DNA of 64,000 nt from an uncultured Clostridia bacterium. GTDB taxonomy: Bacteria > Bacillota > Clostridia > Oscillospirales > Ruminococcaceae. The notes under the pieces are model-generated. The model saw only the letters and a list, made by a program, of their open reading frames with translations. It made no database searches and had not been told where the DNA came from. The translations under genes were made by a program, and so were the position numbers. Shown piece by piece: positions 49,966 to 62,580 of the stretch. The stretch lies in NCBI GenBank assembly GCA_947624555.1, contig CANQKW010000004.1:62001-126000 (forward strand). The letters run 5' to 3'. The stretch's first letter is position 1, and each line of letters opens with the position of its first letter.

Positions 49966-50340
49966 TCACTCAACTTCGATTATCTTTGCGTCAACAACAT
50001 TCTTTTTGATGCTTTCAATGCCGTTTTTGCAGCCTGCCTTAGCCTTATAGCCTTCGCCTGTCGCAATTATTTCACCGTTTCTCGCTTTAAGACGGAAACG
50101 AAATTCGCCTTTCTTATCAGTGTACATCTCAAATTTCGGGTTTTTCTCTTCGGCATAACCCTCAACAGTCTGATCTTCAACAGGAGCGTCAGGTGCATTC
50201 TTGATCACGCTGTTTATGCCGTTCTTGCACGCATCAAGTGTGCTGTAAATCTCACTTGTCGCAATTATCTCGCCGTTGCCTGCCTTCAAATTGAACTTGA
50301 ACCCGTCGTTAGCCGTCTTTTTGATTTCAAACTTGCCCAT
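49966..50340 (-). CDS. YegP-like protein with two DUF1508 repeats
   Basis: A 124-residue protein made of two about 50-residue DUF1508 repeats, each with FxFxLKAxNGEIIATSE-like sequence (FKFNLKAGNGEIIATSEIY and FRFRLKARNGEIIATGEGY) followed by a CKNGIxSIKKN segment. YegP-type proteins are small and of unknown function, common in gut bacteria. Own promoter at 50398-50426. Confidence 0.92.
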   Translation of the reverse strand: MGKFEIKKTANDGFKFNLKAGNGEIIATSEIYSTLDACKNGINSVIKNAPDAPVEDQTVEGYAEEKNPKFEMYTDKKGEFRFRLKARNGEIIATGEGYKAKAGCKNGIESIKKNVVDAKIIEVE

Positions 50341-50397
50341 AATTTTCCGTCCTTTCAGATTTTTTGCCCGAGAAAATTTTCATCAGGCTATGCTCTT

Positions 50398-50426
50398 ATT
50401 TTAACATTATTTGACTTTATTGTCAA
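50398..50426 (-). promoter_or_regulatory. promoter of the YegP-like gene
   Basis: Minus strand: TTGACA (50426-50421), 17-base spacer ending TGT, TAAAAT (50403-50398). Confidence 0.78.
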
Positions 50427-50500
50427 GCATTTTACCGAATTTTAAAAAATTTTCGGCTATTTTTCGGAAATTTTCCAAGGTAAAATTGCCTAAAATCTTC

Positions 50501-50529
50501 TTGACAAATTGTGATATATCTGTTATACT
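50501..50529 (+). promoter_or_regulatory. promoter of tRNA-Leu
   Basis: TTGACA (50501-50506), 17-base spacer ending TGT, TATACT (50524-50529). Confidence 0.82.
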
Positions 50530-50541
50530 GTATAAAGAAGT

Positions 50542-50628
50542 GCTGGTGTGGCGGAACAGGCAGACGCAAGGGACTTAAAATCCCTCGGTGGCAACATCGT
50601 ACCGGTTCAAGTCCGGTCACCAGCACCA
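50542..50628 (+). tRNA. tRNA-Leu (anticodon UAA)
   Basis: An 87-base class II tRNA. Acceptor stem GCTGGTG/CACCAGC, anticodon loop with TAA inside GACTTAAAATC, long variable arm (CTCGGTGGCAACATCG), T arm CCGGTTCAAGTCCGG and an encoded CCA end (ACCA). Confidence 0.96.
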
Positions 50629-50631
50629 CAA

Positions 50632-50980
50632 GGGCAGCGCCCTTGACCTAATTCGCCCCACACATCGCTGTGAGGCGTTTTGTTTTATCCCGATGCCAAA
50701 AATCTTTTTTTGCAAAGGTCAGATATTCGGGCAGCGCCCTTGACCTAATTCGCCCCACACATTGTTGTGAGGCGTTTTGTTTTTTCCCGACGCCAAAAAT
50801 CTTTTTTTGCAAAGGTCAGATATTCGGGCAGCGCCATTGACCTAATTCGCCCCACACATCGCTGTGAGGCGTTTTGTTTTATCCCGACGCCAAAAATCAT
50901 TTTTGCAAAGGTCAGATATTCGGGCAGCGCCCTTGACCTAATTCGCCCCACACATTGTTGTGAGGCGTTTTTTCTCTCAA
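50632..50980 (+). repeat. four tandem ~97-bp repeats, each with a terminator-like hairpin
   Basis: Units begin at 50632, 50729, 50826 and 50922 (97, 97, 96 bp and a truncated last unit). Each starts GGGCAGCGCC, contains TTGACCTAATTCGCCCCACA and a hairpin CGCCCCACA/TGTGAGGCG followed by TTTTGTTTT, and ends with CAAAGGTCAGATATTC. The hairpin loops alternate (CATCGC, CATTGT, CATCGC, CATTGT). They begin 3 bases after the tRNA CCA end. Confidence 0.92.
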
Positions 50981-50997
50981 ATCGGTTAAAATCCAAG

Positions 50998-51046
50998 AGC
51001 CTGTAAACTTTTTGCATTAAGCAAGGCAGTTTACGGGCTTTTTTTG
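50998..51046 (+). terminator. terminator after the tandem repeats
   Basis: AGCCTGTAAACT/AGTTTACGGGCT stem (50998-51009 with 51028-51039, one G-T pair) followed by T7. Confidence 0.82.
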
Positions 51047-51130
51047 CAAAAATCGTCAGTAATGCACCGTGCGGATATAAAAGTTGCAGAAATGATAAAG
51101 CGAAAATTTGTTTGTAACAATAAAAAACTG

Positions 51131-51159
51131 TTGACAAATTATAATTGTTGTTATATAAT
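51131..51159 (+). promoter_or_regulatory. promoter of the TetR-CPBP operon
   Basis: Perfect consensus: TTGACA (51131-51136), 17-base spacer, TATAAT (51154-51159). Confidence 0.85.
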
Positions 51160-51177
51160 GTATGTTATACAACAATT
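51143..51177 (+). promoter_or_regulatory. palindromic operator over the TetR promoter
   Basis: Inverted repeat AATTGTTG (51143-51150) and CAACAATT (51170-51177), with further partial symmetry inward (GTTATA and TATAC). It spans the spacer, the -10 element and the likely transcription start, and is probably the autoregulatory site of the TetR protein encoded next. Confidence 0.6.
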
Positions 51178-51200
51178 ATTTTTATCAAGGAGAAATTTCT

Positions 51201-51773
51201 ATGCCGCCGACAGCAAAAATCACAAAAGAGATGATCATAGACGCAGCTTTTGAGGTTGCAAGAACCAAAGGAGCAGAAAAAATCAACGCTCGTACCGTTT
51301 CAAAAAAGCTGAATTGTTCGACGCAGCCTGTTATGTACCATTTTGCAACTATCGAGGAATTAAAAAAAGCCGCCTATGAAAAAACAGGAGAATTTCACAC
51401 CGAATATCTTCTGAAAATTTCCAAAACTCAAAAAAATGCTATGCTTGAAATCGGGCTTAATTATATACGATTTGCAGTCGAAGAACCTTATTTATTCCGC
51501 TTTCTGTTTCAATCGGGCTTTGCCAAAGAAAACAGCATAATTGAAATGATAAATTCCGAGGAGCTTACGCCTGTTCTTTCGGTAATGCAAAAAGCTATGA
51601 AATTAAACGCCGAACAGACCAAAAATGTTTTTATTACGCTTGCAATGTTCGTACACGGATATGCAAGCCTTATTGCCAACAATTCTTTTGAATTTGATGA
51701 AGAACTTGCAGCGGCGCATCTGGGTCAGGTATATAAAGGCGCAATTTCGGCTATACGGGAGGAAAAAATATGA
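51201..51773 (+). CDS. TetR/AcrR family transcriptional regulator
   Basis: A 190-residue regulator with the N-terminal TetR helix-turn-helix (ITKEMIIDAAFEVARTKG, INARTVSKKLNCSTQPVMYHF) and a helical ligand domain. The start at 51201 follows AAGGAGAA; an ATG at 51162 lies inside the promoter region. It overlaps the following protease gene by 4 bases and presumably represses its own operon through the palindrome at 51143-51177. Confidence 0.9.
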   Translation: MPPTAKITKEMIIDAAFEVARTKGAEKINARTVSKKLNCSTQPVMYHFATIEELKKAAYEKTGEFHTEYLLKISKTQKNAMLEIGLNYIRFAVEEPYLFRFLFQSGFAKENSIIEMINSEELTPVLSVMQKAMKLNAEQTKNVFITLAMFVHGYASLIANNSFEFDEELAAAHLGQVYKGAISAIREEKI

Positions 51774-52429
51774 AAAAAACCAAACTGCATACGGCGGTAA
51801 TTATCCTTGTCATTGTGATGATAATTTTATCATTTACAAATCTTCTTAATTTGCAGATAAACGGCGAGCCGCTGAAATTGGCAGGATTATCTGTTATAAT
51901 AGGAATAATTGCCTATTTTACTACCTGCAAAACAAACGAAAGCAAAAACGAAGGATTTAATATCAAAACATTTATCGGTTCGCTCAAAAACAAAACCGTA
52001 ATAATGCTCATTTTGCTTACGCTGATAGTGAATGTGATAAGTTTTGTTACCGCAAAATTATGCCTTCCTGCGTATGTTGAGCATATACTTAAAAGATCAG
52101 GCGATTTATTGGATTTCGCAAATTTGCCGATTATGCTCTTAGAACTCGTTGTTTTTGCGCTTGGAGAGGAAATCGCCTGGCGAGCGTTTTTCCAGAAACA
52201 GACTTCAAAAATAATACCGTTTGTGCCGTCGCTGATACTCACGTCGATTTTATTCTCACTCGGACATTTCAATTTCGGAGAGCCGATAATTGTATTTTTC
52301 GATTTGCTGTTTGTTTTTTTAGACTCGATAATTTACGGCATAATTTTCAAAAAAACCGACAACGCCTGGTGCAGTTTTTCAGCGCATTTTCTCGCAAATT
52401 TGCTTAGTGCGGTTTTGTATGTGCTGTAA
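51770..52429 (+). CDS. CPBP-family intramembrane metalloprotease
   Basis: A 219-residue polytopic membrane protein with about six helices. The CPBP (Abi/CAAX protease) motifs are EEIAWRAFF (EExxxR), SLGHFNFG (the H of motif 2) and HFLANLL (HxxxN-like) near the end. Members cleave prenylated or bacteriocin-related peptides or give self-immunity; here the substrate is unknown. Coregulated with the TetR gene by overlap (ATGA). Confidence 0.87.
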   Translation: MKKTKLHTAVIILVIVMIILSFTNLLNLQINGEPLKLAGLSVIIGIIAYFTTCKTNESKNEGFNIKTFIGSLKNKTVIMLILLTLIVNVISFVTAKLCLPAYVEHILKRSGDLLDFANLPIMLLELVVFALGEEIAWRAFFQKQTSKIIPFVPSLILTSILFSLGHFNFGEPIIVFFDLLFVFLDSIIYGIIFKKTDNAWCSFSAHFLANLLSAVLYVL

Positions 52430-52464
52430 AATTACGGATTAAAAGAAAATTCTATCAAAACCCC

Positions 52465-52493
52465 TTGACAAAAGATGTAAGTGGTGTTATAAT
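52465..52493 (+). promoter_or_regulatory. promoter of the structured leader and surface protein
   Basis: Perfect consensus: TTGACA (52465-52470), 17-base spacer ending TGT, TATAAT (52488-52493). Predicted transcription start near 52500. Confidence 0.85.
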
Positions 52494-52499
52494 TTAAGG

Positions 52500-52656
52500 T
52501 GCTACACAACCGAATATTTTGTCTGTAAAGGTTGCACTATATCCTTTGGTAAAAGTGCAAGCTCTTTTCGTGCATCCTTTATAGACGGAACACGGTTGTG
52601 TAGCAGCAATGAGCTATGCATTTTTGCAGTGCGTAGCTTCGGCTGCGCACTTTTTT
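52500..52656 (+). ncRNA. structured 5' leader RNA, candidate riboswitch or attenuator of unknown class
   Basis: P1 is a perfect 12-bp stem, GCTACACAACCG (52501-52512) with CGGTTGTGTAGC (52593-52604). P2 is an 11-bp stem, 52521-52531 with 52576-52586 (GTCTGTAAAGG/CCTTTATAGAC, one G-T pair). P3 is 7 bp, TTGCACT (52532-52538) with AGTGCAA (52554-52560), with a 15-base loop. The expression platform has two exclusive pairings: AGCTATGCA (52612-52620) with TGCGTAGCT (52630-52638), or the terminator AGTGCGTAGC (52628-52637) with GCTGCGCACT (52642-52651) followed by T5. I do not recognise the aptamer class. Confidence 0.75.
52628..52656 (+). terminator. conditional terminator in the leader
   Basis: A 10-bp stem AGTGCGTAGC/GCTGCGCACT with a TTCG tetraloop and a T-run. 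Its 5' arm is also claimed by the upstream antiterminator pairing, so termination is probably regulated. Confidence 0.8.
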
Positions 52657-52722
52657 ATTTGCGGAGAATTTTGCGCAGTATTACATTATAACATTCCGCA
52701 AAAGAATATGGAGGAAAAGAAC

Positions 52723-54189
52723 ATGAAATTTAAAAGGACAGCCGCATCGGTGCTGGCGGCTCTGACTGCGGTAAGCGCAGTTTCGGTGTGCGCATTCGCA
52801 GAGGAAAACAAGGTAGAACTGACAACGCTTGACTTAACGGACGAAATGAAGTATATGGAATATTTAGGAGACGGATATTTCTTATATGGTTCAAACGCTG
52901 CTTATATCGACGGTTTTGTTCATCTCGAAAAGGACGACAATGGCGAACTTACCTTTACCGATGTTGAAACCGATATTGATTTCAGCGAAAAAAATATTGC
53001 TTGGTGGAACGGTAATAATGACGGAAATGGCGAATATTTCCAGTTGTATAAAAAAGATGAAAATGGCAACGTTGCAAAAAGATATGTCATGCACATTGAC
53101 GCAGCAGCCAACAAGGTGACAACAGCTTACACCATGCCGGCAGATTGGAGCTATACAGCAGATGATGGATATACGGTCGCAATAGACGGTGATTCTTATG
53201 TTGTATACGACCCTAAAGGAAAAGTCAAATCAACACAGGCAAACAAAACAAATCCCGGCTATTACGGTGTTACTGCTTCAATGTATGGCAACAAATATGC
53301 CGGATATTATATTGAAAAAAGTAATGAAAAAGTTGTTGAAGATAGCGGAGACAGATTTGTATACAATGATTATACCTTATACGGAATTGACAAGAAAGGA
53401 AAACTTGTTGAACTGTACACCAAAAATGCTAATGGTATGGTGTTACACGAAGGTTCTAACTTTGTACTTTTACAAGGAGTTGAAGTAATTTACCCCGACG
53501 ATGGTGGAATTATTTATCACAGATATCTTACTTATATCAATTTGGAAACCGGCGAAATCACTGAAGATCCTGTTGAAATATTTGATGATGTCGAAAGCCA
53601 AGCAATTTATAACGATAAAGTGATTTTATCGGTAGATAAAAAGCAGTATTTATATGATATAAAGACTCAAGAACCTGTCAATGATAAGAAATATAAATAC
53701 ATTTACACCTGTGACGAGGGCAAAACCTATCGTGTTCAGAACACCGACGACAAGTGGGGCTATCTTGACGAAAACGGCGAAGAAATCGGCGAGTGGTACG
53801 ACGATGCAGATGCATTCTACGGCGACTATGCCCCCGTTGTTAAAGACGGCAAGGGTTATCTTATCGACAGAAACTTCAACCGTGTTTCCGATATGATAGA
53901 CGCAACGGGCGTTTATTCTTTCGACGATGACTTATTCCAATTTAGAAACGGCGAAACCGATAACGTATTCGCAACTTACAATTCGACTGAACCTGCTCCT
54001 TCCGACGATACTTCCGAGCCTGCTGACGACACTTCCGAGCCTTCCGACGACACTTCCGAGCCTGCCGACGACACTTCCGAGCCTGCCGACGTAAACAACC
54101 CCGAAACGGGCGTTGGCGGCGTTTCCCTGACCTTTGGTCTTGCGGCACTCGCGGGAGCGGCTGTTGTCGTTTACCGCAAAAAGAGATAA
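52723..54189 (+). CDS. cell-wall-anchored surface protein with WG-like repeats and NPETG sorting signal
   Basis: A 488-residue protein. Signal peptide about 1-27 (TAASVLAALTAVSAVSVCAFA). The body is beta-rich with repeated DKWGYLDENGEEIGEW and KGYLIDRNFNRVSD segments, like WG/KWG repeats. A linker of tandem DDTSEP(A/S) repeats follows, then NPETG, a hydrophobic stretch and the tail VVYRKKR, which is a sortase signal of the NPxTG type. The start at 52723 follows GGAGG; an upstream in-frame ATG lies inside the leader RNA. Expression should be governed by the leader RNA. The function is unknown and the repeats suggest binding. Confidence 0.86.
   Translation: MKFKRTAASVLAALTAVSAVSVCAFAEENKVELTTLDLTDEMKYMEYLGDGYFLYGSNAAYIDGFVHLEKDDNGELTFTDVETDIDFSEKNIAWWNGNNDGNGEYFQLYKKDENGNVAKRYVMHIDAAANKVTTAYTMPADWSYTADDGYTVAIDGDSYVVYDPKGKVKSTQANKTNPGYYGVTASMYGNKYAGYYIEKSNEKVVEDSGDRFVYNDYTLYGIDKKGKLVELYTKNANGMVLHEGSNFVLLQGVEVIYPDDGGIIYHRYLTYINLETGEITEDPVEIFDDVESQAIYNDKVILSVDKKQYLYDIKTQEPVNDKKYKYIYTCDEGKTYRVQNTDDKWGYLDENGEEIGEWYDDADAFYGDYAPVVKDGKGYLIDRNFNRVSDMIDATGVYSFDDDLFQFRNGETDNVFATYNSTEPAPSDDTSEPADDTSEPSDDTSEPADDTSEPADVNNPETGVGGVSLTFGLAALAGAAVVVYRKKR
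54001..54090 (+). repeat. tandem DDTSEPA repeats
   Basis: A 21-base unit (GACGACACTTCCGAGCCTGCC and variants) repeated about four to five times, encoding the DDTSEP(A/S) wall-spanning linker before the NPETG motif. Confidence 0.85.
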
Positions 54190-54222
54190 TCGTTAAATCT
54201 TCATCATTTTATTATATTCCTC

Positions 54223-54258
54223 AAACGCACCCCGATAATTCGAGGTGCGTTTTTTTTT
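54223..54258. terminator. terminator after the surface protein gene
   Basis: AAACGCACC/GGTGCGTTT stem (54223-54231 with 54244-54252) with a 12-base loop, followed by T9 in total. Confidence 0.85.
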
Positions 54259-54416
54259 GCTTTTTGGGATTTTTGCAAGTCAAAAAGACGGCTGATTTTT
54301 TTACCCGGATTAAATATTGCCGTGCGGAAATGTCGTTTGTCACCACCGGCAGCAAAGACGATCTTACCAAAACGCCGCAACAACTGCCGAATAATATCAC
54401 ATTTACAAAATCTCGG

Positions 54417-57400
54417 TTATTGATTATTTCCTAAAACATCCCCCTTGATTTTGTTCAGGACAATTTCCGCATCGAACTCCGGAGGCGTCATCTTAAAGTC
54501 GTGACTTTTTTGCTGCAAATTGTTTTCTTTTATCTGAAAGCTTCGCAGCTTACCTATATCTATCTGACCTACGAGAATGGTGCTGTTAATTCCGCCCTTG
54601 GTACGCAGAATGTCCATTTCTTCTGTTTTAGACGGCTTTGTTATGCGGCTGTCACCGTATTCCGATGAATTGACCTGAACGCAGTAACAATGTATATCAC
54701 GGCTAAGGGACTCAAGAATGTTGCTGTAATAATTAGTATCCTTGTTCCATTCAATTGCGACAAGGAAGTCTGCGTATGACTGGAAAATAGCTCTGTCCCT
54801 TACAGATGCCAGCTCATAGCAGCAATATACGGGGAAATAACAGTCATTCCATTTGTAAAGCTCATATGTATTTCCTTCAATACCGTTAAGCCTGTAGCCT
54901 CTGATGAGTTCCTTTTCCTGTGGAGAAAGATAGTTTTTAAGATGAAAACAAATATTTGCACAGCTATAATTGTACTTGCGATTAATGAATGGAAGAATGA
55001 CAGCCGTCAGATTAAACACCTTTTTGTCAAAAACAATGTGCTCTACTCCCGTGACAACAGCCATATTACTCTTGGCACAGGTTCTTGCAAGTATTGTTAG
55101 CCATTCAAACGGAACATATGATTCCGGCATTACCAGCATATCTGCGTGCTGGTCAATTGCGGCATTTACTACATCTACAAGTTCCTTGTATCGTTTATAG
55201 CTGCGATTAGGATTGCCTTTTATCAGCTTATCAAAGTTGTCGTATGAAAGCGATACATTTGCAACAGCTATTTTAAGCGAAGATTTTTTGAAAGAACCTG
55301 CTGATACAAGATAAGTTTTTTTCATTTCTTTTTTATTCTTTGTCTTGTTTCTAATATAAACTGCTTTTACCATATCTTCTAATATATAAGATTTAAATTT
55401 TTTTTGTGGGCAAAAATTATATTTCACAAACCTATTGGCTTGACTTTTAATCATACCTGTTATATCACGGAAGTTTTCAGAATCTTTCTTCATCTGCTCC
55501 AGACTTGATATAATGGAAATATCATACATACTGATAATATACGGATAATAGCGATATTTTGATTTCCAATTGTCCTTCTTGATGTGTGAAACAGCATCTT
55601 GAAAACGGGTAAGATTTACATCGAATTTGTTGTTTAGCTTGTCTTGTTCGATAAGGTCGATAAAGATCGGCATAACAGACTTGTCCATCATTTTAGTTTT
55701 GAGATACTTCAAACAAATTAGTTTTATGTCATCTTTTGAAAAAGGAAAATCACTTCCTATGTCAATGCTTTTTATTGCTTCAGCGACTTTTGGTCCCCAA
55801 ACCAACGAAAATGCTCGACAAATTGCGGAATAAAGATATGAATACAACGTTTCTTGCATCTCAGACAAAGTGTTTTTGTTATCATCTGAAAGGTTTGTAC
55901 TCGAAATGGAGTTTAAAACCTTGTTAATAAAATCCACAGCAGCGGAGAATGAGTTGTCTACCACAAAAGCCTCAATTATTCTCTCCCACATATCATAATA
56001 CCGGATGATAATTCGAGGGGTGAAGATTATATTTATATCATTGATAAACTGATACTCTCCTCTGTCACTTATCATACTGCCTATTCTGAGGTGTTTGCTA
56101 AGGAACTTTGATAATTCGTATTTGTCCAGGCTGATGCTCTTTATCCCTCTGAATTTGTTCGGACTTTCTTCATTTACCAAATGATAAATGTTGCCGTAAT
56201 CATCGTCACTATAAAAGGTTTCATCATCGGGCATATGTCTAAATTCACTGGCATTTATCGCAATTTTTTTCTTGAAACAGGTTATAAGCGCATCGGATTC
56301 TCCACTCTTGAAGTAGAAAATGTTTACCTTACTATTTTGCAGCAGTATCTTGCCATTTCCTTTAGAATGGTATTTGGGATTAACCCTATATATTATCTGG
56401 GACACATCGGGTTCTTCTGCTGCTGCTTTTTTGGTTTCTTCTTTATCTTCTATCAGCAGAGCATTTTCCTGTGATGATAGTTCTTTATTCATACCGCACC
56501 ACTTTGAACATTGCGTCAGTAATAAAGAGATGATATCATCTCTTTTGATAATGCCCTTTGCTGCTTTTTCGTAAAGGTCGCTGTTCTTCTCAACCTTGTC
56601 AATGATGAGAATGTCATCGACATATCTTCCGTAGTATATCGGATTCCAGCCATCGGAAACAGCTTTGTCAAAGGCATTGAGATACCAATTGGATAAGACA
56701 TTTGACGGAAGAAATCCTATTGGAAGGATGGTTCTTCCCTCACTTGCAGCACATTTCTTTGAATAAACATCAAAAACTTTAAAAATAAACTCTGAAAGAT
56801 TCTCAACAAGCTCTCGGTTTTCATCACTATACGAATTTATTTCCAAATTATCAATAATCTGTTTTTTGACTTCATCATTCATATCAACAGAGTAGTAATA
56901 ACGCTTAAAATCCATTGTAATAACGGCAACATCCTGATTTGACTTGAGATGCCATAACGCCTGATCCAGTGCCTTATCGCGCCAGCTCTCATACTGCTGA
57001 AAATAAGGTTCAAACAAATAGGGCGAGTAGGTACACTCATTGCTGAATTCACTTCTGAGGTTTTTGCGAATTCGGTTGCCATAGGAGTGCTCATAAATCT
57101 GCTCGTCTATTTTATATCCTGCCATCATTAGCCATAAAACTCCAAGAATATGACCTTTGACATCCATATCTATGAAATACTGAAGTTCTTTCACAGTAAT
57201 ATCCTTTTCCGTAAAGTTGAAAAGGACATTTGAGTCCTCAGTTTTAGAATGTTCAAGTGTTTTAGGAAAAACCCTACAATTTATACCATCACAAATACTA
57301 CTGCATAGTGATTCAAAGTCGTTTATTAAATCGTTACTCAAATTAATGAATTTATTATCATCTTCATTAACGTTATGCTCTACTTCCCATTTAACAAGTT

Positions 57401-57488
57401 CCTGTCTGAGGATGAGCTGAGTTTTATCATAATACACACTGGATTTCAGTTTCTTGTATGCTATTTTTAATAATTCAATTATTTCCAT
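54417..57488 (-). CDS. defence-associated reverse transcriptase fused to a nitrilase domain (DRT1/UG1-like)
   Basis: A 1,023-residue fusion. The N-terminal half is a reverse transcriptase: motif A with Asp193 in ITMDFKRYYYSVD, motif B ILPIGFLPSNVLSN (254-267) and the catalytic YVDD (289-292) in YYGRYVDDILII. A helical region of about 400 residues follows. Residues about 735-985 are a carbon-nitrogen hydrolase (nitrilase) domain with a full Glu-Lys-Cys triad: Glu789 (VMPESYVPFEW), Lys851 (FHLKNYLSPQEKE), Cys890 (YCCYELASVRDRA). This architecture matches the UG1 group, DRT type 1, reported to protect bacteria from phage. The start at 57488 follows TAGGAGAA; an ATG at 57515 is before it. The gene is AT-richer than its neighbours, suggesting transfer. 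Confidence 0.9.
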   Translation of the reverse strand: MEIIELLKIAYKKLKSSVYYDKTQLILRQELVKWEVEHNVNEDDNKFINLSNDLINDFESLCSSICDGINCRVFPKTLEHSKTEDSNVLFNFTEKDITVKELQYFIDMDVKGHILGVLWLMMAGYKIDEQIYEHSYGNRIRKNLRSEFSNECTYSPYLFEPYFQQYESWRDKALDQALWHLKSNQDVAVITMDFKRYYYSVDMNDEVKKQIIDNLEINSYSDENRELVENLSEFIFKVFDVYSKKCAASEGRTILPIGFLPSNVLSNWYLNAFDKAVSDGWNPIYYGRYVDDILIIDKVEKNSDLYEKAAKGIIKRDDIISLLLTQCSKWCGMNKELSSQENALLIEDKEETKKAAAEEPDVSQIIYRVNPKYHSKGNGKILLQNSKVNIFYFKSGESDALITCFKKKIAINASEFRHMPDDETFYSDDDYGNIYHLVNEESPNKFRGIKSISLDKYELSKFLSKHLRIGSMISDRGEYQFINDINIIFTPRIIIRYYDMWERIIEAFVVDNSFSAAVDFINKVLNSISSTNLSDDNKNTLSEMQETLYSYLYSAICRAFSLVWGPKVAEAIKSIDIGSDFPFSKDDIKLICLKYLKTKMMDKSVMPIFIDLIEQDKLNNKFDVNLTRFQDAVSHIKKDNWKSKYRYYPYIISMYDISIISSLEQMKKDSENFRDITGMIKSQANRFVKYNFCPQKKFKSYILEDMVKAVYIRNKTKNKKEMKKTYLVSAGSFKKSSLKIAVANVSLSYDNFDKLIKGNPNRSYKRYKELVDVVNAAIDQHADMLVMPESYVPFEWLTILARTCAKSNMAVVTGVEHIVFDKKVFNLTAVILPFINRKYNYSCANICFHLKNYLSPQEKELIRGYRLNGIEGNTYELYKWNDCYFPVYCCYELASVRDRAIFQSYADFLVAIEWNKDTNYYSNILESLSRDIHCYCVQVNSSEYGDSRITKPSKTEEMDILRTKGGINSTILVGQIDIGKLRSFQIKENNLQQKSHDFKMTPPEFDAEIVLNKIKGDVLGNNQ

Positions 57489-57574
57489 ATTATGTTCTCC
57501 TAATATCAAAAGCATTTACTAAAGCAACAGCGCACGATTATACAATGATAATTCAAAATAAAGGCACATTCAGT

Positions 57575-57605
57575 GAATAATTGTGCGGTATAGCCTTAAT
57601 TATTC
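57575..57605. promoter_or_regulatory. inverted repeat upstream of the RT gene
   Basis: GAATAATT (57575-57582) and AATTATTC (57598-57605) with a 15-base spacing, between the XRE gene and the RT start. A minus-strand TATAAT (57545-57540) with poor -35 lies between it and the RT start, so this may be an operator or a weak internal promoter region. Confidence 0.45.
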
Positions 57606-57659
57606 TTATTTACTATACACAAAGAATATAAAGTATTTTTTGAGCAATCACCCTATTCA

Positions 57660-58007
57660 TTATTCCTTCTTTATCTCCTTCTGCTTGTCATATAATTGTT
57701 CCATAAACTGCTCCACCCTTCCCTTATTGCGTTCACTTAGCCGTAAAAACATCTTAATAATCATTTCCTCATCAGGGGTTAGCTTGCTGCAGGCAACGGA
57801 GCGAGTACAATCTGTGCGTCCGGCAATATAATCTACACTCACATTGTAATAATCCGCCAATATAACCGCAAAATCAAGGGGAACCGAGTGTTTTCCCTGC
57901 TCGTAATTGGTGTAGGTTGTTTTATGCATATTCAACTCTTTACAAAGAGCGTCTTGTGTCAAATCTCTGTCTTCCCGAAGGTCGCGTATTCTATGATAAT
58001 GGCGCAT
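57660..58007 (-). CDS. XRE-family transcriptional regulator next to the RT-nitrilase gene
   Basis: A 115-residue protein with a Cro/C1-type helix-turn-helix (RIRDLREDRDLTQDALCKELNMHKTTYTNYEQGKHSVP in shorter blocks: LTQDALCKELNMHK, TTYTNYEQGK) and a charged C-terminal helix. It is upstream of and in the same direction as the RT-nitrilase gene, 171 bases away, and probably controls it. The start at 58007 follows GGGGAGG; an ATG at 58028 is less likely. Two direct repeats upstream (58082-58132) are candidate binding sites. Confidence 0.88.
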   Translation of the reverse strand: MRHYHRIRDLREDRDLTQDALCKELNMHKTTYTNYEQGKHSVPLDFAVILADYYNVSVDYIAGRTDCTRSVACSKLTPDEEMIIKMFLRLSERNKGRVEQFMEQLYDKQKEIKKE

Positions 58008-58439
58008 ATCGTCCTCCCCGTCCATCAAAGAGTACTTTTATACTTTTTTTAAAAAATTATAACATTTTTGTGTTAATATTTTCGACAAAATACAACAAAT
58101 AATGTATAATAATATCGAAGAATACAACAAACTAACACTTGCTATTTTATATATTTCACAAATAAATATTTGACATTTTACCTTTACAATTAAAACCGAT
58201 AAACATAGTCACGCAGTTTCTTAAATCAGCTGCTTAGCGCTGCAGATGGACAATTATCAATTATCTGCAGCTCTATTTTCAAGGAGATCATATGTGAAAA
58301 AAATATTAAATATTTTGCACCGTCAACTGTGCTTTCGCTGACGGATGAATTTTTTGCTTGATAAAGGGGCAGCATTAACGGCGATTTTTACATTTCGGGC
58401 AATACAACATTTTTTAATGGCACGTTTACCGAATTTCAG
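58008..58439. other. AT-rich region upstream of the defence locus, with possible gene remnants
   Basis: About 430 bases without a full gene. It holds the direct repeats and promoter-like sites (58082-58132), an inverted repeat GCTGCAGAT/ATCTGCAGC (58239-58247 with 58263-58271), and an AAGGAGA site (58280-58286) followed by GTG and only 15 codons (MKKILNILHRQLCFR). From about 58366 a short open stretch reading DFYISGNTTFFNGTFTEFQ has no start. These look like remnants of a lost gene, but this is uncertain. Confidence 0.4.
58082..58132. promoter_or_regulatory. paired direct repeats, candidate XRE operators
   Basis: TCGACAAAATACAACAAA (58082-58099) and TCGAAGAATACAACAAAC (58115-58132), 33 bases apart, i.e. 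about three helical turns. A plus-strand promoter-like TCGACA-N17-TATAAT (58082-58110) is embedded between them. On the minus strand they lie upstream of the XRE gene, whose likely -10 is TATAAT near 58055-58060. Confidence 0.55.
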
Positions 58440-59291
58440 TCATTCAACTCTATAATGACCCACCCGTCTTTCCTGCCAATCCTTCCGCAAAAAATCAACG
58501 AAATCAGAAAGCTCAAATTCTGCGATATATTGAACAGGATTATCTGTTGTGCTGGTGATAACATTTTCAGATATTTTTGTTACTTCAACAACATTGTTTG
58601 CACAGATTTCCGAGTATTCTCTTCTTACAAGCGCAATCAGCTCGTCGCTGTTGTCGTCAATATCAAAACGGAAGAAATATCCTGCCCCGGATTGCGTTAT
58701 ATCACTTTCTTCAGCCTTGTTAAACAGCGCCACAGTGAATTTTTCTCCCGGCGCATAAGGCGGGTCACCTGCTCTTTGATATACAGGGTCGTAAGAAGAA
58801 AGAGCAATATATAATTCTTTGCTGCAATCTTCTCCCGTAATCAAATCTTTGATCGCTTTAACTTTATAAATGACGCCAAGACCGTAGTGAACTCCGTCGT
58901 ATTCCAAACCGTTCAATTTATAATACCAGTCTTTAAATCCCTGTAATTTTTCACAGTCGGACAATTTCATCAGCTCAATCGCTTCAACAAGATAATACGA
59001 GTCAAGCCCATTATTCATAGGACTTGTCATAGTTTCCATAACCTCGTCATAGGTAATCGGTGCGCCTGTAGTGGGAATTTCCTCGATAATTTCTTTAAAC
59101 ACATCGTCATAATAAGCGCCTTGTTTTTGCGTTTCTTCGCCGGTGCTTTCGGACAAAGAAGATGTTTCTTCGCTTATCTGCGAACTATCCGCTGCGTCGC
59201 TGCCCTGCAATGCCGGTTCATTGCTGCTGCACGCCGTTGTGTTAAGTAAAACTAAAAATAGTGCGAGTAAAGGCAAAATATGCTTTTTCAA
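58440..59291 (-). CDS. lipoprotein of unknown function
   Basis: A 283-residue protein with lipobox NTTAC (Cys at about 21), a Ser/Glu-rich spacer (about 22-60) and a mixed alpha/beta domain containing YYDDVFKEIIEEIPTTGAP, EAIELMKLSDCEKLQGF and FFRFDIDDNSDELIALV. I do not recognise the family. It appears monocistronic, with 273 bases of AT-rich sequence upstream that show only a poor promoter. The body resembles uncharacterised lipoproteins common in Oscillospiraceae. Confidence 0.78.
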   Translation of the reverse strand: MKKHILPLLALFLVLLNTTACSSNEPALQGSDAADSSQISEETSSLSESTGEETQKQGAYYDDVFKEIIEEIPTTGAPITYDEVMETMTSPMNNGLDSYYLVEAIELMKLSDCEKLQGFKDWYYKLNGLEYDGVHYGLGVIYKVKAIKDLITGEDCSKELYIALSSYDPVYQRAGDPPYAPGEKFTVALFNKAEESDITQSGAGYFFRFDIDDNSDELIALVRREYSEICANNVVEVTKISENVITSTTDNPVQYIAEFELSDFVDFLRKDWQERRVGHYRVE

Positions 59292-59564
59292 AAAATTCCT
59301 TTCTGTTTTAATGTCCTTTGCAGCATCGTTTTTTAGATTTTAGGACTTGTTACCCTACTGTTTCCTCTGCGCTGTAAATAGTGACTATAATTTATTTCGG
59401 ACGCATCGTCAAATCCCTTTCCTTAATTTTCTGAGGTTTTTGTCCCTCTATAAATATATCTGTTTTTTTCGACAATTAGGGAACATAACTATTGAAATTT
59501 TTATAAACTTTAGCGCTTTTGCTAAAGCAGGTAAGCTTTCTTTGTCTAAACCGCCGTATACATT

Positions 59565-59933
59565 CTATTTCATCAGCTCGTCCGACAGCCTTATAATCTC
59601 GTCTGCGAGCTTTTCACGCCGCATTTTCGTTATCGCCGAATAGACGGGATAAGCGCAAATTATGCCGACAATTCCGACCACCCCGACAATAATTCCGAGC
59701 ACGAAAAATTCCTCGCCCCAGACCATTGTGCAGCACATTCCTACGCCTAAAATCAGGCAGCTGATTATTCCCATAATCAGCGAAACGACCGTTCCGGGCT
59801 TAGTCACGCTCTTGTCAAGGCGTCGCAATTGCTCCATTTTATCCTCGGTTTTTTCGTGAGTATATTTGCTGCGAATTTTCTTAATTTCCTCCTGCTGCGC
59901 CGCAGAGTAGGTGTAATTAAACGTGTTGTTCAT
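59565..59933 (-). CDS. small membrane protein linked to the two-component system
   Basis: A 122-residue protein with a cytoplasmic helical, charged N-terminus (AAQQEEIKKIRSKYTHEKTEDKMEQLRRLDKS), two transmembrane helices (about 48-70 and 74-97, with ILGVGMCCTMVWG between) and a charged tail. The central CMILG/GVGMC pattern recurs in the membrane protein at 62876-63244, so the two are probably related. It begins inside the end of the preceding gene. AAGGAG is 9 bases before the start. Confidence 0.72.
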   Translation of the reverse strand: MNNTFNYTYSAAQQEEIKKIRSKYTHEKTEDKMEQLRRLDKSVTKPGTVVSLIMGIISCLILGVGMCCTMVWGEEFFVLGIIVGVVGIVGIICAYPVYSAITKMRREKLADEIIRLSDELMK

Positions 59934-60834
59934 TTTCAAAATCTCCTTTCCTGAGCCGTTTAGTTGACTTTACGATCATAAAAATTGCAATTCCGATAAC
60001 AATTGTGCAGACAGCGCCGCCTGTTGCTCCCGTCATTGCCTGCCGAAAAAACGGGTCGTCGTCCTCGCCGAATTGCGCTAACATCGCCGTTTCAAGCGAC
60101 AAAATCGACACCATCGCTGCGACTAGATTTATCACCTTTGCCGCCGACAGCAGCGGACTTCCGTGCTTTCTGAATTTGACAAGATTGATCACGGCAACAA
60201 TTATCGAATAAAACGAGTACGCCGCCATTGCGTAGATAAGCAATCCCGGATAATCAAAACCCTTGTTCTGATACACCATAAAGACAACTATTCCCGCTAA
60301 CAATTGGTTCATTACAAGCAAAATTATTCCGCACATTCGATAGCGTTTCAGTTCGATTTTTAGGTTCAAATCGCTGTTTTTGTGCAGCAAAATAAACCGC
60401 ATAATTGCGAGTAAAATATAATAAACACCGAGCGAAATAAACCACACCGAATGATAATAAATCCCCGAAAAAAGTTTCACGGCAATGTACAGAAAATTTA
60501 TCGCCAAACCGCAGTACAATGCGATTTTCGTGCGAAAACGTACATCCGAAAAAAACCGCTTTCCGAATTTTGTGCTGCGGATTTTTTTCATAAGACCACT
60601 GTCATATAATCTGCTCCGTGTCAGTTTAAAAAACGAAATAATCCGAGGGAAATTCGTTATTGTAATCGTTAAAGCATATGCTGAAAAGATATATGACAGA
60701 TATTCAAGCGCAGGAATTTTTATGTTAAAAACAGCGACCGCAAGCACGAAAAGATAACCCGTCACCGCAAGAATTATCGCAGGCAAAGCGGGCGGAAAAA
60801 GCATTTTTCGGAGTATTTTTTTAATTCGTTCCAT
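59917..60834 (-). CDS. polytopic membrane protein linked to the two-component system
   Basis: A 305-residue protein with about eight hydrophobic helices and basic loops; no family recognised and no catalytic motif seen. Its first 14 bases overlap the end of the histidine kinase gene, and its end overlaps the next small membrane protein, so the four genes form one operon. It could be a transporter-like target or an accessory sensor of the kinase. Confidence 0.75.
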   Translation of the reverse strand: MERIKKILRKMLFPPALPAIILAVTGYLFVLAVAVFNIKIPALEYLSYIFSAYALTITITNFPRIISFFKLTRSRLYDSGLMKKIRSTKFGKRFFSDVRFRTKIALYCGLAINFLYIAVKLFSGIYYHSVWFISLGVYYILLAIMRFILLHKNSDLNLKIELKRYRMCGIILLVMNQLLAGIVVFMVYQNKGFDYPGLLIYAMAAYSFYSIIVAVINLVKFRKHGSPLLSAAKVINLVAAMVSILSLETAMLAQFGEDDDPFFRQAMTGATGGAVCTIVIGIAIFMIVKSTKRLRKGDFENEQHV

Positions 60835-61912
60835 TCAATTTTCTCCTGAGTTTCACGGTGAAAGTGCTGCCTTTTCCGACTTCGCTCCGGACAGAAATTT
60901 CTCCGCCGATTATGTCAATAATTCTCTTCACCAGCGCAAGCCCTAAACCGTTTCCCTGAGAGGCGTGAGAGGTATCGCCCTGATAAAATTTCTCGAAGAT
61001 ATGCTTTCCCGTTTCGGGACTTATTCCGCAGCCCGTGTCGCTGATTTCTACCACCGCAAATTCCCCGTCCGTTGTAAGCGAAAGAGCAACTTTTCCGCCC
61101 GTTTCGGTGAATTTCAGCGCATTTGAAAACAGGTTGCTCCACACAAGCTCCAGCAGCTTAAAATCGCTTTCAATAAGCACTTCGTCTGCGATTTCCGTCG
61201 AAATTTCAATCTGCTTTTCCTCCCAGATTTTCTCGAAATTCAATAGACTTTCGCACAACTGTTCGCCCAGATCGTACACCTTTTTTTCGGGAAAAATTTG
61301 CTGATTTTCCAGCCGATTTAACTTCAAAATATTCGTTATCAGATCCGCCAGCCGCCGTGACGAATTTGTAATTATTTTCGCATATAGGAGCCGTTTTTCA
61401 TCGGGAAGATCGGGCGTTTGCAGCATCGTTCCGTAATTTTGAATTACGGCAAGCGGCGTTTTCAATTCGTGCGAAACGTTTGCAATAAAATCCGTGCGGA
61501 GCGTTTCAATTCCCGATAATTCCTGCGCCATGCGGTTGAAATAATCAATGATTAAATTGAATTCGTCACCGCCGTGAATTTCTGAAATTTGCACCGAAAA
61601 ATCTCCGTCCATAATTTTTTCCGCTGCGGAAATGATGTGTTTAACGGGTCTTGTCACCATAAACCACCGCCGAATTTCGTCGATAATCGTGAATAAAAGG
61701 CTTATCAAAATCACATTCCCGAACGTCAATTTTGCGGCAAGAGTGATATTTTCTTCGGTCAATTCAACTTTCGCACTTTGCTGAAATGTGATTAAAAAAA
61801 GCGTCATACAGCAGGTCACGGTAAACGAAATGACAAGGAAAAACGACGCAAACCGCCGCACCGCACGCAATATTTTAGCAACCCGTAAATCCGCATTGTT
61901 ATGCGCTTTCAC
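60821..61912 (-). CDS. sensor histidine kinase
   Basis: A 363-residue membrane kinase: two transmembrane helices (about 20-40 and 55-75) with only a short outside loop, a HAMP domain (about 70-125), HisKA with FIANVSHELKTPLAVIQNYG (phosphorylated His), and a HATPase_c domain with the N box (LVWSNLFSNALKFTE), ISDTGCGISPE (G1), F box and GNGLGLALVKRI (G2). The lack of a large sensor domain suggests it senses within the membrane, as in intramembrane-sensing kinases. It overlaps the response regulator gene by 4 bases. Confidence 0.95.
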   Translation of the reverse strand: MKAHNNADLRVAKILRAVRRFASFFLVISFTVTCCMTLFLITFQQSAKVELTEENITLAAKLTFGNVILISLLFTIIDEIRRWFMVTRPVKHIISAAEKIMDGDFSVQISEIHGGDEFNLIIDYFNRMAQELSGIETLRTDFIANVSHELKTPLAVIQNYGTMLQTPDLPDEKRLLYAKIITNSSRRLADLITNILKLNRLENQQIFPEKKVYDLGEQLCESLLNFEKIWEEKQIEISTEIADEVLIESDFKLLELVWSNLFSNALKFTETGGKVALSLTTDGEFAVVEISDTGCGISPETGKHIFEKFYQGDTSHASQGNGLGLALVKRIIDIIGGEISVRSEVGKGSTFTVKLRRKLNGTN

Positions 61913-62580
61913 TTGATCACCGCCTTATAGCCCAAGCCGTGTACGGTCTGAATTCCAAACTCATCGCACTCGGAAAATTTATCACGAATTTTTGTGATAT
62001 AGACGTCGACGGCACGAGGCGCAGTGTTGGTTTCTGCGTCCCAGAATTCGTCCATAAGCTGCGTTCGGGTGAATGTTTTTTTCGGATAGGACAAAAGCTT
62101 GTACAAGATATTGAATTCCCTTGCCGTAAGCGAAATTTCCTCTCCGTCGAAAATCGCCGTCCGCTCGTCTGCGTCAAGCGTAAGTTTCCCGATTTCAAGC
62201 CGATGACTTGCGGCAATTTTTGACCTTCTGAGCAACGCCCCGATACGCAAAAACAGCTCGTCGAGGTCTATAGGTTTCACCATATAATCGTCAATTCCTA
62301 TGCGAAATCCCCGCTGTTTTGACGCAAAATCGTCCCGTGCCGTCATAAACAAAATCGGTATATTTTCATTCAACTCGCGCACGGTTTTCGCGAATTCAAA
62401 TCCGTCAATTTCGGGCATCATAATATCGGAAATCACAAGGTCGAACGTGCTGCCGTACATTTCGTTATATGCGTCGTTTGCACCGTAACAGCCTGTTGCA
62501 TTATAACCGCTTTGGTTCAGAAATGCGCACACGGCGTGATTTAAGTCTTTGTCGTCCTCGACTACAAGAATTTTGAACAT
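61909..62580 (-). CDS. OmpR/PhoB-family response regulator
   Basis: A 223-residue regulator with a receiver domain (MFKILVVEDDKDLNHA with acidic pocket, phosphoacceptor Asp in LVISDIMMPEIDG, MTARDD, Lys in YMVKPID) and an OmpR-type winged helix (LTAREFNILYKLL, FTRTQLMDEFW, VDVYITKIRDKF, VHGLGYKAVIK). The start at 62580 follows AAGGGGGG; an ATG at 62613 lies before it. Two TGTTAAAG repeats 11 bases apart in its promoter suggest autoregulation. Confidence 0.95.
   Translation of the reverse strand: MFKILVVEDDKDLNHAVCAFLNQSGYNATGCYGANDAYNEMYGSTFDLVISDIMMPEIDGFEFAKTVRELNENIPILFMTARDDFASKQRGFRIGIDDYMVKPIDLDELFLRIGALLRRSKIAASHRLEIGKLTLDADERTAIFDGEEISLTAREFNILYKLLSYPKKTFTRTQLMDEFWDAETNTAPRAVDVYITKIRDKFSECDEFGIQTVHGLGYKAVIK

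Follow-up and report, generated by a model that had tools for sequence, protein, structure and literature searches.

Locus and gene layout

The window analysed here, 64,000 nucleotides (nt) of contig CANQKW010000004.1 from an uncultured Clostridia bacterium, carries a minus-strand gene in which a reverse transcriptase (RT) and a nitrilase are fused in a single intact chain of 1023 amino acids (aa). A small XRE-type gene lies upstream of it on the same strand (Table 1). This arrangement, first proposed in a first-pass annotation made from the letters alone, proved to be real. Two residue numberings are possible, one for the full open reading frame (ORF; 1032 residues) and one starting at Met10 (1023 residues), with an offset of 9; the former is used throughout.

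No ORF of at least 60 aa was found between 54190 and 54416, so there is no membrane partner of the drt1b type in that interval, and a search of 50000–62000 against Rfam at gathering thresholds gave a tRNA as its sole match. Scans for promoters and terminators returned counts at chance level (15 promoter-like matches where 15.9 were expected). The gene lies within a stretch, from approximately 52420 to 59559, without a match in the compared regions of congeners. In G034 and G024 the conserved flanks, which end at ∼52420 and begin at ∼59559, are carried by separate contigs; contigs can break at any point, so the split shows no rearrangement. No empty site was demonstrable among the congeners compared, namely G034 and G024 for both flanks, and G834 and G008 for the right flank only.

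Table 1. Features of the RT–nitrilase locus (window coordinates; residues in 1032 numbering; A2, the 55-sequence alignment)
Feature	Position	Strand	Remarks
UG5 RT–nitrilase gene	54417..57488	-	start at Met10 gives 1023 aa; full ORF, 1032 aa, from 57515
XRE/HTH_3 gene	57660..58007	-	115 aa; 171 nt before RT start, same strand
Terminator-like hairpin	54223..54252	+	end of convergent 526-aa gene
RT region used for tree	56304..57098	-	residues 140–404
RT catalytic Asp202 (Asp193 in 1023 numbering)	56910..56912	-	55/55 in A2
YVDD 298–301, RT catalytic motif	56613..56624	-	55/55 in A2
Lys396	56328..56330	-	invariant, 76/76; aligned with UG1 KT lysine
Predicted protein-priming Ser423 (Ser414 in 1023 numbering)	56247..56249	-	55/55 in A2; 75/76 in larger set
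Middle domain, mostly helical	55362..56123	-	residues 465–718, predicted structure
Nitrilase domain	54465..55292	-	residues 742–1017, predicted fold
Nitrilase Glu798	55122..55124	-	conserved (A2)
Nitrilase Lys860	54936..54938	-	conserved (A2)
Glu867	54915..54917	-	invariant (A2)
Nitrilase nucleophile Cys899	54819..54821	-	conserved (A2); UG1 profile alignment
C-terminal K1008-x-x-P1011-P-x-F1014 tail, DRT1 lid counterpart	54474..54494	-	A2 and profile alignment

Family placement

The best PADLOC profile for the protein was UG5-nitrilase (PDLC03780), which scored 777 bits (E 6.7e-234) over residues 13–1019, against 59 bits for Drt3a and 57 bits for Drt1a (E 2.7e-16, with its best stretch over the RT). 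Pfam gave no match at E 0.1. Relatives were collected by a scan of genome contigs, in which the best 80 of 491 matches were kept, giving 79 loci from Bacillota, Bacteroidota, Pseudomonadota, methanogens and others. In a careful tree of the RT region, five UG1 proteins split from 45 UG5 proteins with a branch support of 100/100, and the window's protein fell inside UG5, its nearest company being Bacillota, mostly Clostridia (98/90). This tree used 50 of 76 rows, the Drt3a row, an unclassified RT (L004) and 24 others picked as long or redundant being dropped; in the quick RT tree, the quick trees omitting 7 of the 76 rows, Drt3a and L004 were placed within the UG5 part, each on a very long branch. 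The nitrilase tree agrees with the RT trees on the separation of UG5 from UG1/DRT1, again with 100% support.

The profile scores and the two trees therefore make the family UG5, with UG1/DRT1 as a cousin. Judged by its sequence, the protein is a UG5-nitrilase of the class 3 UG/Abi RTs. The UG1/DRT type 1 label of the first-pass annotation thus has to be replaced. The defence-RT lineage it proposed is upheld by PADLOC and the published classes; the RT lies outside UG1, an outcome named there as telling against the label, and remains in class 3 UG/Abi and not with introns or retrons. The family itself is an already known defence family, and what is new here is the prediction of a priming serine and a lid for UG5. 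Like UG5-nitrilase as profiled, the window's protein joins RT, middle domain and nitrilase in a single chain and has all motifs; the locus differs in its upstream XRE gene and its lack of a membrane partner, which is ordinary variation. In the passages of Rousset et al. that describe it (PMC9122126), an E. coli UG5 RT–nitrilase with a transmembrane partner, assayed at room temperature, is among the phage-resisting systems and is placed in another clade than type I DRT. Its UG5 RT and C-terminal nitrilase liken it to our protein by description, not by sequence.

Foldseek comparisons with AbiA, AbiK, DRT4 and DRT9, which combine an RT with a C-terminal helical domain, gave E-values of 2.8e-5 to 9e-4 in the better rows, with query-normalised TM-scores of 0.23–0.34. 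The DRT1 structure 9yfd, the one solved structure of a nitrilase defence RT found by sequence, was absent among the 50 matches listed in each fold search (structure library to April 2026).

A candidate priming serine

Conservation was followed in A2, which takes in 54 of the 79 loci. Left out of it were nine two-gene loci, nine broken or cut ones (L028, L029, L030, L041, L049, L056, L063, L084, L087) and seven distant fused ones (L065, L069, L072, L073, L074, L083, L086), the last of which re-entered in a larger set of 76 proteins (67 fused proteins and nine two-gene RTs), to which L008–L010, L095 and L096 were also added. The RT and nitrilase catalytic residues named in the first-pass annotation are conserved in A2. 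The ∼400 residues between the two domains, described earlier as devoid of a recognisable motif, in fact hold Lys396, Ser423 and the mostly helical domain of ∼250 residues.

From YVDD to the nitrilase, Lys396 and Ser423 are the sole invariant columns of A2. Ser423 is kept in 75 of the 76 proteins, including all nine two-gene RTs, and the step from Lys396 is 27 residues in 71 of them, 28 in four and 29 in one. The corresponding step in UG1, from the KT lysine to an invariant serine, is 25–29 in five of five proteins when counted by script, and in DRT1 (9yfd) Ser402 lies 29 past the matching lysine, counted by eye on the sequence letters. In the predicted structure Ser423 ends a helix and is followed by a low-confidence loop, the blocks of residues 421–440 having pLDDT (predicted local distance difference test) values of 55–57 in the second model and of 76 and 60 in the first. 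In DRT1, residues 382–478, S402 included, are reported as not resolved in the structure (PMC13275509, in its account of DRT1). Tyr382, invariant in a first alignment of six rows, was lost as a conserved column with 55 rows.

Given its invariance, its UG1-like spacing past the lysine and its position at a helix end beside a low-confidence loop, Ser423 is therefore predicted, as the most likely candidate, to be the primer for untemplated DNA in UG5. A priming residue for UG5 was not found in the open literature, the main 2022 UG/Abi survey lying outside that search.

Several observations weigh against this prediction. Profile alignment of the loop, in a low-confidence stretch, puts Ser423 some four columns from the UG1 serine, L072 has a threonine aligned at this position, and S402 is stated in PMC13275509 not to be conserved in other class 3 RTs. 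The invariant serine could be structural, and the failure of the two serines to align favours this. We nevertheless consider conservation for structure the less probable explanation, if a serious one, as no other Ser, Thr or Tyr is invariant between YVDD and the nitrilase, the next best being Ser469 (48/55) and Tyr376 (40/55, with Phe in the remaining 15).

The nitrilase domain and its C-terminal tail

Besides Glu798, Lys860 and Cys899, the nitrilase keeps Glu867, which we take to be the second Glu of the catalytic tetrad. A profile alignment of the UG5 and UG1 nitrilase ends (probability 99.6, E 8e-25) pairs the UG1 tail, K-x-x-P-A-x-[FY], with K1008, P1011, P1012 and F1014, so that the DRT1 lid residues K1219 and P1222 have counterparts in K1008 and P1011. 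Within A2, all but one of the 55 sequences have Lys at K1008 and every one has Pro at P1011, and in the larger alignment these two residues are kept in 65 and 64, respectively, of the 67 fused proteins; the loose pattern [FYIV]K..P occurs near the C-terminal end in 64 of 67. The DRT1 substitutions K1219A and A1223F are described as abolishing protection about as much as deletion of the tail (PMC13275509). Not every member has the tail: three of the 67 fused proteins (L009, L010 and L039) lack it even as the loose pattern, and the tails of L066 and L067 are poor matches by eye, though the aligner places K and P.

One of these, L039, an archaeal UG5-nitrilase from Methanobrevibacter, has Ser aligned at the nitrilase Cys and Glu at K1008; its nitrilase is perhaps an inactive effector.

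Two-gene relatives

In nine loci (L071, L075, L077–L082 and L088) the RT and a separate nitrilase are encoded by overlapping ORFs, with a tidy ATGA or TGATG overlap in eight of them; the overlap in L071 may be a frameshifted fusion. These small two-gene forms share the RT region and Ser423 with the window's protein, and all nine separate nitrilases end in a K-x-x-P-P tail. They differ in that the two parts are on two ORFs, so a DNA-carrying RT would need to act on a separate nitrilase. On the careful tree the two-gene state requires four changes, or a smaller number should L071 prove to be a frameshifted fusion; the fused and separate states are therefore interchangeable.

Proposed mechanism

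The family, the intact motifs, the predicted nitrilase fold, the invariant Ser423 and the conserved tail are established here. Together with the published behaviour of DRT1, they make it likely, in our judgement, that the solitary UG5 RT–nitrilase is an abortive-infection antiphage gene working like DRT1, with Ser423 most likely the primer. As set out in PMC13275509, the DRT1 RT builds untemplated DNA on Ser402, the adducts drive filament formation, with the C-terminal tail holding the nitrilase shut; the same account reports covalent, untemplated, protein-primed DNA synthesis by purified DRT5S and DRT5L, and no DRT5 priming site was found in its abstract, introduction, results or discussion. 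UG5-nitrilase PDLC03780 is probably its 'DRT5L'. DRT1 and our protein have the order of domains, the nitrilase Cys column and the lid tail in common, and both carry an invariant serine at a similar distance past the post-YVDD lysine. DRT1 differs in belonging to a separate clade, in its greater length (1229 aa) and in S402 not being column-aligned with Ser423.

Before infection, the RT domain would add short untemplated DNA to its own serine, most likely Ser423 beside the flexible post-RT loop, and the adduct would drive assembly via the nitrilase domains. The C-terminal K-x-x-P tail would close over the active site of a neighbour, so the nitrilase would be shut while assembled. A phage event would then open the assembly, the nitrilase would act on a cell component, and growth would stop. 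That the window's gene behaves in this way, with Ser423 as primer and with a filament, trigger and substrate of this kind, is what we infer from the comparison. Two points weigh on the other side: the equation of DRT5S/L with small and large UG5 forms is our own inference, and the E. coli UG5 system, as its authors describe it (PMC9122126), has a membrane partner where the window locus has none. The drt1b partner of DRT1 is reported as optional, being present with about 18% of drt1 genes (PMC13275509), and a protein with one transmembrane segment follows the gene in the three UG1 loci examined (L091–L093).

More tentatively, and with somewhat less than even confidence, we suggest that one self-caging mechanism is common to all nitrilase-type class 3 defence RTs, in which a single serine 25–29 residues past the post-YVDD lysine (Ser423 here) primes untemplated DNA and the nitrilase is closed by a K-x-x-P tail. 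For UG5 the mechanism would extend to pairs of separate proteins, because the two-gene forms keep both serine and tail. Should the priming role of Ser423 and the lid role of the tail be correct, a small number of point mutants would tell whether UG5 works like DRT1. In the two-gene relatives RT and nitrilase could be purified separately and then mixed, which is impossible with the fused DRT1.

The upstream XRE gene

The XRE protein is a genuine HTH_3 member and may be a local regulator of the RT gene. A stronger version, in which the two genes form a regulated unit and XRE represses the RT gene until infection, would accord with their shared strand and 171-nt spacing, with the absence of a minus-strand promoter-like match between them, and with an XRE gene 29 nt upstream of the UG5 gene in L018. 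We regard it as improbable. Only one of 73 relatives (taken to be L018) has HTH_3 in the ORF immediately upstream, in a tally of the 25 commonest of 112 families that a mis-called or rarer regulator could escape; XRE proteins resembling the window's own (P0002) occur in 40 of 43 genomes in the genus, the source genome among them (best other match 47% identical); and promoter-like matches are at chance number. An XRE protein as a conserved partner of UG5 is unsupported by these counts, and the 'dedicated HTH regulator' of the earlier reading does not stand.

In L043 an XRE gene lies downstream of the UG5 gene (single-sequence search). Upstream of the window's XRE gene is an exact 11-nt direct repeat (58089–58099 and 58121–58131, 32 nt apart), by estimate at or below what chance would give.

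Distribution and neighbouring genes

A housekeeping or other non-defence role for the RT–nitrilase would fit the fact that no mobile element was noticed beside the gene. It is very improbable given the sporadic distribution, in three of 61 genomes (the source genome itself, G017 and G019, the last with a broken copy) and, again counting the source genome, five of 391 in the class, and given the type I restriction genes that stand directly beside about one in ten relatives. Among mechanically called ORFs, HsdS-like proteins were neighbours in 7–8 of 73 loci upstream (73 of the 79 being covered) and HsdR-like ones in 5–6 of 71 downstream (71 of 72, L019 being dropped for its open end). Membership of UG1/DRT type 1 proper, suggested by the same domain order and by a distant profile similarity of RT and nitrilase, is effectively refuted by the bit scores and the fully supported branch given above.

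A weak match in G014 proved to be a different RT. Searches of viral contigs with P0001 and L090 gave no match, and neither did phage records. A congener copy, L003 (on the same contig as L030), is broken at the RT–nitrilase joint in a single-base run, through either sequencing error or real decay.

A membrane protein ORF, which the window lacks, follows the UG5 gene directly in L046, L048 and L055, like the reported E. coli system. In L033, L078 and L085 the UG5 gene is flanked immediately by type I hsdS on one side and hsdR on the other, and in L042 and L054 hsdR is the next gene downstream.
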